12,582 nt of DNA, taken from Planctomycetota bacterium. Its GTDB lineage: Bacteria > Planctomycetota > Planctomycetia > Pirellulales > Lacipirellulaceae. A program made the translations under genes and the position numbers. A model generated the notes under the pieces. That model did not search any database. It worked only from the letters and a program-made list of their open reading frames with translations, and was not told the DNA's origin. This document shows, piece after piece, positions 8,711-12,396 of this stretch. The DNA lies in NCBI GenBank assembly GCA_024278035.1, contig JAJRUA010000177.1, positions 1 to 12,582 on the forward strand. The letters are read 5' to 3'. How positions within the stretch are numbered: the stretch's first letter is position 1; each line of letters starts with the position of its first letter.

Positions 8711-8754
8711 AAGGTGTGATCCGTAACCATCGTCCCATCACTTTTCTTACTATT

Positions 8755-8837
8755 CTTACTCCTAATCTTAATCAGCTTCTTCTCTCCCTTCGCAAGGGAA
8801 AGAGATAAGCAAAAAAAGGATTAAAATTAGGAGTAAG
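8755..8837. repeat. Long palindromic element between gatC and gatA
   Basis: Outer arms at 8755-8773 and 8819-8837 are 19-bp inverted repeats with one mismatch, built of CTTACTCCTAATCTTAATC on the left. Inside is a second hairpin: CCCTT (8786-8790) and AAGGG (8794-8798) around CGC, extended by TCTCT/AGAGA and GCTT/AAGC with a small bulge. Together they make one nearly continuous 83-bp hairpin that would be transcribed as part of the gat mRNA. An A7 run (8811-8817) precedes the right arm. It encodes nothing. It could be a gene-less mobile repeat, an mRNA processing or stability element, or a weak attenuator; a plain terminator is unlikely, since no T run follows on the plus strand and gatA is downstream. 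Confidence 0.75.
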
Positions 8838-8862
8838 ATTAAGATATAAGAACTAAATTGCG

Positions 8863-10401
8863 ATGCCTACGCCTACCGAACTCTCCGCCACTGAGCAAAT
8901 TCGTTCCCTCGCGGCGGGTGAACTCTCGTCGGTCGAATTGACGCAAGCCTATCTTGATCGCATTGCTGAGGTGGAGGACCGAGTCGGAGCCTTTCTCCGC
9001 ATCACGGCAGATCGAGCGCTCGAACAAGCGGCCTCGGTCGATGCCCGGCGTGCCCAAGGCGAATCGCTCGGGCTGCTGGCCGGTCTGCCCGTAGCGGTGA
9101 AAGACGTGCTCTGCGACAAAGGGGAGCTGACCACTTGTGCGTCACGCGTCCTGGAAGAGTTCCGCCCGCCCTACGATTCAACGGTCGTTGCCAAGCTCAA
9201 AGCGGCTGACGCCGTGCTGATTGGCCGGACGAACATGGACGAGTTTGCAATGGGCGGCTCGACCGAGAACTCGGCTTTCCAACCCACCCACAACCCGTGG
9301 GACTTGCAGCGTTCGCCCGGCGGTTCCAGCGGCGGTGCGGCCGCCTGCATCGCGGCAGGCGAGTCGCCCCTCTCAATCGGCACCGACACCGGTGGCTCCA
9401 TCCGCCAGCCAGCGGGACTCTGCGGCACGGTTGGTCTCAAACCAACCTATGGCCGAGTGAGCCGTTACGGCCTGGTGGCGTTTGCCAGTAGCCTCGACCA
9501 AGTCGGCCCGCTTGCTCGCAATGCCTCGGATGTGGCGCTGCTGTACGACGCGATTGCTGGCCATGACCCGAACGATTCGACCTCTTTGCCTGCCGAGAGC
9601 CCCCGGGTTTCCGACACGATCGACCAACCGCTCGTTGGTTTGCGAGTCGGCGTTGTTCCTGAGCATTTTGCCGAGGGGCTCCATCCCGAAGTGAAGGCGG
9701 CTGTCGAGAAAGCGATTGCCACTTATCGTGAATTAGGCGCCGAAATTATCGAGATCGATTTGCCACACGCCAAGTACGGCGTGGCAACCTATTACGTGAT
9801 TGCCCCCTGCGAGGCGTCGAGCAACTTGGCCCGTTATGATGGGGTCCATTACGGTCGTCGCACCGATCCGTCACAAATGCTGACCGATTTGGCTGCCGAG
9901 CGCAAGGCGGCCACCGAATCGGGCGACATGGAGACTGCGAACAAAGTCGATTCGGCTTTGGTGCGTCTCTACCGACAAAGCCGTAGCGAAGGACTGGGCC
10001 CCGAAGTGCAACGGCGCATCCTCCTGGGGGCTTATGCCCTCAGCGCCGGTTACTACGATGCCTACTACCTGAAGGCTCTGAAGGTTCGCCGACTGATTCG
10101 CCAAGATTATGACCAAGCGTTCGAGAAGGTCGATCTGATCGCCGGCCCTGTGACGGCGTCGCCCGCCTTCAAGCTGGGCGAACTAACGAGCGACCCGCTT
10201 GCCATGTACCTGGTCGATCTCTACACGGTGAGCGCGAACTTGGCGGGCCTTCCTGCAATGAGCCTTCCGTGCGGCCAAGCGGAAAGTGGCCTCCCGATCG
10301 GCCTCCACCTGATGGCCCCATCGCTCCAAGAAGATCGCCTCCTCCGCGCCGCACGAATGTACGAAACGGCCCGCGGCCCTACGACCACCGCACCGCTATA
10401 G
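8863..10401 (+). CDS. gatA: GatA amidase subunit of the tRNA amidotransferase
   Basis: GatA releases ammonia from glutamine and passes it to GatB for amidation of Glu-tRNA(Gln) or Asp-tRNA(Asn). The 512-residue protein is a full-length amidase-signature enzyme. [14 protein letters not shown] contains catalytic Lys80. The [11 protein letters not shown] glycine/serine motif gives cis-Ser155, and [13 protein letters not shown] gives nucleophile Ser179, so the Ser-cisSer-Lys triad is intact. The segment [23 protein letters not shown] and the C-terminal [13 protein letters not shown] are GatA hallmarks. The ATG at 8863 gives the standard N terminus; no Shine-Dalgarno site is seen in the AT-rich leader. 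It follows gatC after the 83-bp palindrome and is separated from gatB by 501 bp holding a decayed mobile-type element. Confidence 0.96.
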
Positions 10402-10416
10402 AAAGGAAGCAAAGGA

Positions 10417-10454
10417 AACCGCGAATGGACGCGAATAAGCGCGAATGAAAGAAG
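10417..10454 (+). repeat. Left 38-bp inverted repeat, three CGCGAAT units
   Basis: It is identical to the reverse complement of 10846-10883. CGCGAAT occurs at 10420, 10430 and 10440, one per helical turn. The last unit runs into ATGAAAGAAG, the start of the GxxExxY reading frame. Confidence 0.9.
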
Positions 10455-10833
10455 AAATCATCCTAAAAGAAGAGGCGTATCAAGTTATTGGTGCATGTTA
10501 TGAGATCCATAACGAGTTGGGCTCCGGTTTTCTTGAAGCCGTTTATCAAGAATGCCTAGAGATCGAGTTCAATGATAGAAAATCCCCTACCGCTCTCAGC
10601 CTTCAATAGCAATCCACTACAAGAATCGAACGATCACCAAAATCTACCAACCCGATTTCGTATGTTTCGATAAAATCCTGATCAAGCTCAAGGCCGTCTC
10701 AGAGCTATCGAACGCGAATCGGGCACAAGTCATCAATTATCTCAAAACAACCGGCCTCAATCTCGGACTCCTTATCAATTTCGGCAGGCAAGGAAAACTC
10801 GAATACGAACGCTTAGCCCTAACCCATCGCTAA
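10445..10833 (+). pseudogene. GxxExxY (PDDEXK_3-type) protein gene, frameshifted
   Basis: The first part (10445-10609) encodes MKEEIILKEEAYQVIGACYE, then IHNELGSGFLEAVYQECLEIEF, which contains the GxxExxY signature (GSGFLEAVY), before a premature TAG at 10607. The rest continues in another frame to TAA at 10831: AIHYKNRTITKIYQPDFVCF, then ILIKLKAVSELSNANRAQVI, then NYLKTTGLNLGLLINFGRQG. Adding one A to the A4 run at 10579-10582 restores a single frame of normal family length (about 130 residues) reading NDRKIPYRSQPSIAIHYK across the joint. The nuclease-fold motif PD-x(n)-ELK has its Asp (QPDF) but the Glu is Lys (LIKLKAV), a GAG-to-AAG change. Two independent lesions point to real decay rather than a sequencing slip alone. 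The family (GxxExxY; Pfam PDDEXK_3) has a restriction-endonuclease-like fold; its biological role is not settled to my knowledge. Confidence 0.88.
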
Positions 10834-10845
10834 ACTCACTTATCC

Positions 10846-10883
10846 CTTCTTTCATTCGCGCTTATTCGCGTCCATTCGCGGTT
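10846..10883 (-). repeat. Right 38-bp inverted repeat, three CGCGAAT units
   Basis: It is a perfect reverse complement of 10417-10454. It lies downstream of the pseudogene stop and ends 19 bp before the gatB ATG, so it occupies the gatB leader. Transcribed with the gat mRNA it could pair with the left arm into a 38-bp duplex closing a loop of about 390 nt. Confidence 0.9.
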
Positions 10884-10902
10884 CCTCTTTTTTTGCTCAC
10901 GC

Positions 10903-12396
10903 ATGTCTGATTACACCACCATCATTGGCCTTGAAGTTCATGTGCAGCTTGGCACACAGAGCAAGTTGTTTTGTGGGTGTACGACCACGTTTGGGGCGGA
11001 ACCGAACACGCAGACTTGCCCTGTCTGCTTAGGGCTCCCCGGCTCACTGCCGGTGCTGAACGCCGAGGCGATTCGGCTGGCCATCGAGACGGGCGTTGCG
11101 CTCAATTGCACCATCCCCCCGTTCACCAAGTGGGACCGCAAGCAGTACTTTTACCCCGATCTTCCGAAAGGGTACCAAACGAGCCAGTTCGACCTGCCTA
11201 TCACCGAGCAAGGGTGGTTAGAGATCGCCGACATCGCGGGCGAAGCGAAAGACCAAGCTGCCTTTGAGCCAAAACGAATCCGCATTACTCGCGCGCACCT
11301 TGAAGAGGATGCGGGCAAGAGCCTGCATGACGATTCCAAGGGAGGGGGCGATACGGTGATCGATCTCAATCGGGCCGGCACGCCGCTGCTGGAGATTGTT
11401 AGCGAACCCGATCTTCGTTCGGCAGCCGAGTCGAAAGCCTATTTAACCGAGCTAAAATTATTGCTCACTTCCCTGGGCGTTTCGGATTGCAACATGCAGG
11501 AGGGGTCGTTGCGAGTGGATGCCAACGTCAATCTGCATGTGGACGATCCCAAGAAGCCGGGCGAAAAATCGGCGACGCCAATCGTCGAGATCAAAAACCT
11601 CAACAGCTTCCGCGCCGTCGAACGGGCAATCGAATACGAAGTGGGCCGCCAGTGGCGAGACTGGCAAGAGACCCACAGGCGTATCGGCGAAGCCCCCAAG
11701 CAGACCCGCGGATGGGACGACTCGGCAGGCGTCACCCGCCCTCAACGTGAAAAGGAAGACTCTGCCGATTACCGCTACTTCCCTTGCCCTGACTTGGTGC
11801 CGGTCCTTACGACCGAGGCTGAGGTCGAGGCGGTCCGCAAGGCCATGCCCGAACTACCGGCGGCCCTTCGGCTTCGTTTGCAAACGGAGTTTGGCCTTTC
11901 GGCTTTTGATGCCGACGTGATCGTTAGCCGTGGACGTGATATTTCGGACTATTTCCTTGAGGTCGCCACCGCCAGCGGTGATGCCAAGCAAACGGCCAAC
12001 TGGATTTCGCAACATGTCCTGCGAGTGATGAATGCCCAAGAGAAGAGACTAGAAACGCTCGGCCTTTCTGCCGAAGTGCTGGCCGAACTGATAAAAAAAA
12101 TCGCGGGGGGCGAACTCCCCAAATCACGGTCGCGCGACGTGTTCGACCTTTTGGTAGACGAAGGGCTTGATATCGAAGGGGCCATGGACAAGCTTGGCAT
12201 CACGGCCGTCGATGAATCGGAGTTGATCGAAATCTGTAAAGAGCTACTTGCTTCGAACCCCAAAATCGTAGCCGACGTGCAAGGGGGCAAACAACAAGCG
12301 GTTGGCTCTCTCATCGGCCAAGCCAAGAAGAAAAACCCCAACGCCGATCCGGCCCGCGTCCGCGCGATTTGTCTCGAATTGATCGCTTCCCTCTAA
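10903..12396 (+). CDS. gatB: GatB subunit of the tRNA amidotransferase
   Basis: GatB binds the mischarged tRNA, activates its Glu or Asp with ATP, and amidates it with ammonia delivered from GatA. The 497-residue protein is full length. The N terminus YTTIIGLEVHVQL is the family signature. Cys24, Cys26, Cys39 and Cys42 (FCGC and CPVC) form the zinc-type site. LEEDAGKSLHDD, then DLNRAGTPLLEIVSEPD and MQEGSLRVDANV are conserved kinase-like core motifs. The C-terminal helical and tail domain (about 350-497, ending around VGSLIGQAKKKNPNADP) is the tRNA-contact region. The ATG at 10903 gives the normal start. The leader is almost all element sequence plus a T run, with no Shine-Dalgarno site. With gatC and gatA it makes a complete complex, which suggests indirect synthesis of Gln-tRNA(Gln) and/or Asn-tRNA(Asn); the window cannot show which. 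Confidence 0.96.
   Translation: MSDYTTIIGLEVHVQLGTQSKLFCGCTTTFGAEPNTQTCPVCLGLPGSLPVLNAEAIRLAIETGVALNCTIPPFTKWDRKQYFYPDLPKGYQTSQFDLPITEQGWLEIADIAGEAKDQAAFEPKRIRITRAHLEEDAGKSLHDDSKGGGDTVIDLNRAGTPLLEIVSEPDLRSAAESKAYLTELKLLLTSLGVSDCNMQEGSLRVDANVNLHVDDPKKPGEKSATPIVEIKNLNSFRAVERAIEYEVGRQWRDWQETHRRIGEAPKQTRGWDDSAGVTRPQREKEDSADYRYFPCPDLVPVLTTEAEVEAVRKAMPELPAALRLRLQTEFGLSAFDADVIVSRGRDISDYFLEVATASGDAKQTANWISQHVLRVMNAQEKRLETLGLSAEVLAELIKKIAGGELPKSRSRDVFDLLVDEGLDIEGAMDKLGITAVDESELIEICKELLASNPKIVADVQGGKQQAVGSLIGQAKKKNPNADPARVRAICLELIASL

Follow-up and report, generated by a model that had tools for sequence, protein, structure and literature searches.

Inverted arms of iterated CRCNRAK units around a decayed GxxExxY nuclease gene in a planctomycete gatCAB locus: a candidate selfish repeat system

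The 12,582-nt stretch of DNA analysed here (contig JAJRUA010000177.1 of assembly GCA_024278035.1, from a planctomycete of the Lacipirellulaceae; hereafter the window) carries, between the host genes gatA (8863-10401, plus strand) upstream and gatB (10903-12396, plus strand) downstream, an insert in which two inverted arms enclose a broken gene of the GxxExxY family. The left arm (10417-10454, plus strand, 38 bp) begins AACCGCGAAT, has AACC at its outer end and holds CGCGAAT units at 10420-10426, 10430-10436 and 10440-10446, and the right arm (10846-10883, minus strand) is its exact reverse complement, with units at 10880-10874, 10870-10864 and 10860-10854; in both arms the three units are spaced by 10 bp and oriented inward. 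With 38 nt in 100% complementarity and 391 nt between them, the arms form the top-ranked inverted repeat of the window. Two pieces of the gene can be recognised, the first of which (10445-10609, plus strand, 54 aa, stop codon at 10607-10609) matches positions 2-40 of PF13366 (E 4.8e-12) and the second (10609-10833, plus strand, 74 aa, in a different frame) positions 50-116 (E 1.6e-20), both above the cut-offs of PF13366 (Pfam) and TIGR04256 (NCBIfam), i.e. GxxExxY / PDDEXK_3. Being split over two frames, the gene is regarded as a pseudogene: neither its reading frame nor its E-x-K motif (Glu to Lys in the second piece, alignment by eye) is intact, and intact GxxExxY copies are present in relatives. 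It is the only gene between the arms (which hold no other open reading frame of at least 60 aa), and no DDE or other transposase was found in the insert, either in the list of open reading frames or by Pfam profile search. The gene is dead in the window and its arms are intact, much as an earlier note on this DNA had described; the span given there (10408-10897) is slightly wider than the arms, and its observation that the reading frame starts within the left arm holds (ATG at 10445-10447, read from the sequence).

Packaging by inverted repeats, which the earlier note had proposed as usual for GxxExxY genes, was found at 59 of 69 testable planctomycete loci (best matches of a profile search; nine clipped loci excluded) under a fixed rule (flanking-arm score of at least 30), the counts by set being 24/29, 17/22 and, for the loci fetched last, 18/18. 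Arms of that score flank 1 of 2000 random windows of gene size, and in a set of 196 small genes one has arms. An earlier count gave 45 of 60 testable open reading frames (42/57 after the removal of three loci reached twice), and some of the arm-less calls are boundary effects, as L006, L087 and L105 have arms in other scans (L and G numbers designate loci and genomes). On the flanking-arm scale the window arms score 76 (38 matches x 2, by arithmetic), a high degree of perfection that is not peculiar to them, since scores of 73, 80, 79 and 93 are reached elsewhere (L105, L146, L149 and L335, respectively). Within 800 kb of two related genomes, just three inverted repeats had a score of at least 40 and a gap of more than 400 nt (exact 10-base seed). 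PF13366 matches were present in seven of the first nine genomes (3-14 per genome, some being fragments of one broken gene), and a single search returned 5515 family matches at E <= 1e-3. Among plasmids and chromids, six loci were examined from eight records with matches: Sphingomonas (score 41) and Bernardetia (36) have clear unit arms and Treponema (22) a short pair, those of Fusobacteria (24) and Persicobacter (18) are weak or absent, and a gene-free element recognised by eye adjoins the Gemmatirosa locus (score 21). A Sphingomonas GxxExxY gene (L244:1480-1908) lies between fabD and fabG, with the 3' arm within its coding end. Viral contigs gave four pattern matches, with no relative among them, and phages gave zero matches.

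An arm is an array of about three CRCNRAK units, one per 8-10 bp, whose sequence varies among copies and mostly agrees within one copy, and several unit types (CGCGAAT, CACAGAG, CGCCAAG, CACGAAG and others) occur within one genome. Where both arms held three units (21 copies), the spacing pattern of the left arm matched that of the right in 95% (vs 44% in comparisons with further copies of that type), and the free fourth position of the unit agreed between left and right arm in 71% (vs 46% for other copies; permutation p 0.007). The outer arm end is weakly conserved over about five bases (consensus TT-AA-C|CRC, 145 arms). CGCGAAT, the unit that the earlier note named for testing other loci, turned out to be one of many types under the general unit CRCNRAK, so that a test limited to CGCGAAT would miss many copies; a de novo inverted-repeat census of the 800 kb likewise missed most elements, because gene-free arms hold the grammar without perfect pairing. 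The CRCNRAK pattern was used instead of both.

With three units required, this pattern counted 98-237 arms on each strand of three genomes (vs 1-12 for the reversed pattern), which hold 6-14 PF13366 matches; as the arms far exceed the genes in number, most copies must be gene-free. Neither this excess nor the tie between unit type and protein clade described below was foreseen by the earlier note. Across 87 genomes, at least 10 net arms were present in 38 of the 46 with a GxxExxY gene and in 5 of the 41 without (26/33 vs 4/34 in the first set, 12/13 vs 1/7 in the second). In one set, drawn from gat loci, pattern loci and 400 kb of G004, 20 of 21 distinct short arm pairs faced inward, and CRCNRAK-type repeats are plentiful in many planctomycetes, with single loci in Bacteroidota and Alphaproteobacteria. 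G004 (L169-L188) additionally contains GTAG-type hairpins like those of repetitive extragenic palindromic (REP) sequences, and other short palindromes. A CACGAAG family of G085 (L275-L290, L016:3612-4019) has outward arms within a larger repeat, near-identical cores and diverged loops, and is far rarer in the listed part of the sister genome G084. The two sister genomes differ in copy number and by several indels, and the region compared is a mosaic of repeats. A clean 158-bp palindromic repeat without CRCNRAK units (L300:19455-19612) occurs in G085 but not at the matching place of G084, which has about twenty related places.

The gap between gatA and gatB was followed through 80 gatB loci of relatives (the closest to the window being Botrimarina species, 78 and 76%), in 68 of which gatA lies immediately upstream. 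Thirty-four of these 68 gaps are compact, six contain a GxxExxY gene within arms (L002, L006, L007, L018, L020 and L023), four a gene-free inverted repeat (L004, L011, L017 and L024) and 24 other spacers; an arm remnant was recognised by eye in L012 (scored compact) and L072. The gap is empty in L013 and filled in L020 (best segment 85.7% identical), and empty in L008 and filled in L007 (80.5% identical). The empty and filled sites expected by the earlier note were thus found, and the exact ends were not, as no clean junction or target-site duplication was seen in comparisons at only ~80-96% identity. Because most GxxExxY loci are armed and this site occurs both empty and filled, neither a general lack of repeats nor a fixed presence of the insert among relatives was encountered. 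Moreover, since L023 belongs to a different protein clade with CACNGAT units, and the gene-free inverted repeats of L004 and L017 have very different units (AAGGAGAC and AAAGGAG), the gap has been invaded more than once, with at least two different invaders among the relatives. At L020:11998-12157, a CGCGAAT gene-free element surrounds a second palindrome with other units, apparently as nested elements. The window itself has a second palindrome in the gatC-gatA gap (8751-8841; 23-nt arms, 91%, 45-nt loop), its next-best inverted repeat, which on the minus strand resembles, by eye, the hexamer repeats GATTAA GATTAG GAGTAA.

Among 58 relatives of the protein, D70, E80, K82, Q94 and Y98 are conserved in 54-56 (the Glu of E-x-K in 56), and the predicted fold of the L007 protein is nearest to lambda exonuclease and to SSO0001, which we take to be a Cas4. 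As D, E-x-K and Q-x3-Y (the last presumably a mark of the RecB/Cas4/lambda-exonuclease branch) are all present, the GxxExxY protein is predicted to be a PD-(D/E)XK nuclease resembling that branch. On a tree of 58 proteins (excluding three duplicate loci and short open reading frames; nine carrying no unit label; one branch very long), the last unit base (AG or AT) shows 7 and 6 changes, vs 19.6 and 17.3 after shuffling (0/500 as low), and finer unit types and spacing also group by eye. Stronger evidence comes from a test in trans, which omits the arms of the typed genes themselves: AT arms are few in genomes with all-AG genes and many in AT genomes (12 vs 7 genomes, p 0.0007), and gene type correlates with the other arms of the genome (rank correlation 0.74 over 26 genomes, one, G075, being dropped).

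Among 41 armed gene-bearing copies (three loci enter twice, and four lacking a called neighbour are excluded), 33 have codirectional neighbours on both sides, vs 40-43% of genes. Of 32 distinct gene-free inward pairs (with 7 within open frames and 4 at edges set aside), 13 occupy tandem gaps, 13 converging and 6 diverging ones, and 62-64% of all gaps are tandem. The placement and orientation of the gene-bearing copies suggest that the gene relies on read-through for its transcription. Several copies precede the same host gene in different genera (flanks read by eye), these genes presumably being gltD, apgM and queE (from a reading of protein starts, with no search). Iterated inverted repeats also enclose another family, PF05635 (23S_rRNA_IVP, S23p), at 26 of 34 open reading frames and 24 of 30 loci (L111-L140), with a best arm period of 7 or 14 in 25/26 entries, vs 8-11 in 45/45 GxxExxY entries.

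Taken together, these observations point to the window insert being a decayed copy of a selfish repeat system that lacks a transposase, uses a PD-(D/E)XK nuclease and is akin to REPIN/RAYT (RAYT: REP-associated tyrosine transposases); we give this reading a probability of roughly 0.57. On this hypothesis the element would consist of two inward arms of about three CRCNRAK units (CGCGAAT in the window) around one nuclease gene, which, to judge by its orientation, would have no promoter of its own and be expressed by read-through from the host operon. The nuclease may bind unit arrays that match its type and act on the arms once paired, the probable substrate being a hairpin, a cruciform or an end derived from one, and gene-bearing and gene-free copies of the same unit type would spread in trans, as the correlation between gene type and arms suggests. 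Gene-bearing copies would then persist by descent and decay, leaving arms or nothing.

Several results weigh against this reading. The gene copies L100, L151, L153, L329 and L330 also seem to face outward, and at the G084/G085 loci only 23 of 34 short pairs are inward (as are 3 of 17 pairs of the G085 family, selected for outward arms). At least 10 net arms occur in G076, G064, G034, G077 and G017, where the gene was not detected, and fewer than five in G027, G043, G061, G065, G075 and G079, where it is present. Furthermore, in the 19 genomes counted for both families PF05635 and PF13366 track the arms equally (each 11/12 vs 1/7), and the co-occurrence of gene and arms is therefore not specific; of the discordant genomes, only G009 and G020 favour GxxExxY, G018 does so weakly, and G017 counts against it. 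The agreement of unit and protein on the tree could be plain linkage, and in the trans test, which G069, G071 and G074 fit poorly, gene types rest solely on the arms of the fetched copies (1-5 per genome). Elements at shared sites across genera fit long vertical retention, no clean end was found at the G084/G085 junctions for any CRCNRAK element, and the genome comparisons revealed no transposition event, target duplication or intermediate.

Some of these points would be explained if another enzyme spread the iterated hairpin repeats, and GxxExxY were a cargo, or a nuclease domesticated near them. Such a role is compatible with the arm-rich genomes in which the gene went undetected, with the equal tracking by PF05635 and with the great excess of arms over genes; it sits poorly with a unit type that follows the GxxExxY clade and matches, in trans, the type of the genome's genes, and with arms at 18/18 genes of the last set, and we consider it unlikely, though by no means negligible. 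A further alternative places the action of the arms in the RNA: in the transcript they would fold into a long hairpin and RNase III would cut the insert out of the gatCAB message, as happens with 23S rRNA intervening sequences, leaving the gene as a selfish rider that is tolerated because of this processing. The strong predicted RNA fold of the window insert (-158.9 kcal/mol, z -7.5), whose main stem consists of the arms, the codirectional placement of gene-bearing copies and the RNase III excision of an S23p-bearing element of Coxiella with tandem heptamers upstream of its open reading frame (described in the available text of PMC4990558) agree with this. However, gene-free arms often differ at N positions and keep the unit grammar, which points to protein recognition, only 13/32 of the gene-free inward pairs occupy tandem gaps, and the copy number is left unexplained, so we hold this alternative to be improbable. 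Still less credible is a nuclease of the homing-endonuclease kind that cuts intergenic sites lacking the element and enters them through repair, with the arms as a secondary feature, in spite of sites occupied in different genera and of the intact, broken, remnant and empty states of the gatA-gatB gap; such a nuclease would not account for several sites per genome, for the many arms without a gene, or for an arm unit type that tracks the protein clade. A chance palindrome or ordinary terminator next to a scattered hypothetical gene can be dismissed, common as short terminator repeats generally are near gene ends, by the contrast of 59/69 GxxExxY loci with 1/2000 random windows and 1/196 small genes. 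An ordinary transposase-bearing element was likewise rejected, as neither the open reading frames nor the profile matches of the window insert show a transposase.

With odds that we would set somewhat below even, the reading of the window insert as a nuclease-bearing repeat system may extend to the family at large: GxxExxY proteins would be nucleases that mobilise a large, so far undescribed class of bacterial transposable elements, with clade-specific unit arrays as a modular address and gene-free hairpins spread by the hundred, and the S23p/23S intervening sequences would form an unrelated second family with the same iterated-arm architecture and 7-bp units. The link between arms and gene would give a job to a very large 'hypothetical' family, help to make sense of its patchy distribution and provide an explanation for a repeat class that is plentiful in many planctomycetes. 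If true, it would describe a repeat-spreading system in which a PD-(D/E)XK nuclease replaces the transposase, and it would offer protein and DNA unit in naturally matched pairs, open to direct testing. Among the matches listed from open-licence PMC papers, we found no prior account that connects GxxExxY or PF13366 with flanking repeats; a gene with a GxxExxY domain close to a CRISPR-like reverse transcriptase (PMC8934634) and a repeat-like string within a primer (PMC3090145) were, from the portions available, judged not relevant.

Of the known systems, the 23S rRNA intervening sequences share with the present elements a small open reading frame between complementary arms with tandem units, and a patchy spread. 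As far as the available text of PMC4990558 goes, the Coxiella S23p element carries GACAGAT as its tandem heptamer and the S23p protein (PF05635) is a four-helix bundle, not a nuclease; the arm period of 7 or 14 also differs from that of GxxExxY, and the window insert, which sits between gatA and gatB and encodes PF13366, is not such a sequence. Miniature inverted-repeat transposable elements (MITEs) and other terminal-inverted-repeat elements are alike in that gene-free inverted-repeat copies exceed the gene-bearing ones, and unlike in that the window insert has no transposase, target duplication was not seen, and the arms are iterated and variable within a genome. In Thiomargarita, the authors suggest that MITEs derived from an element containing PD-(D/E)XK_2 (PF12784, YhgA-like; PMC4853749); that domain is another Pfam family, and the repeats, in the parts of the article available, are 10-bp direct repeats with a 19-bp inverted repeat, in which no iterated units were seen. 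The closest likeness is to REPIN/RAYT, which, in the available text of PMC3116915 and PMC3733652, likewise combines short hairpin repeats, inverted pairs, high extragenic copy number, a dedicated nuclease-type gene nearby and gene-specific repeat groups. Many dispersed inverted pairs, with repeat type matched to gene type, were found in the relatives; the window, in contrast, has no HUH/Y1 tyrosine transposase gene and a PD-(D/E)XK family in its place, and its arms carry about three CRCNRAK units instead of a GTAG-tagged palindrome, the GTAG tag of the hairpin foot being absent. Since both nuclease and tag differ, the system appears to work like REPIN/RAYT without being a member of it, and the recurring repeat-bounded unit, together with its scattered gene-free copies, suggests an undescribed kind of mobile element.
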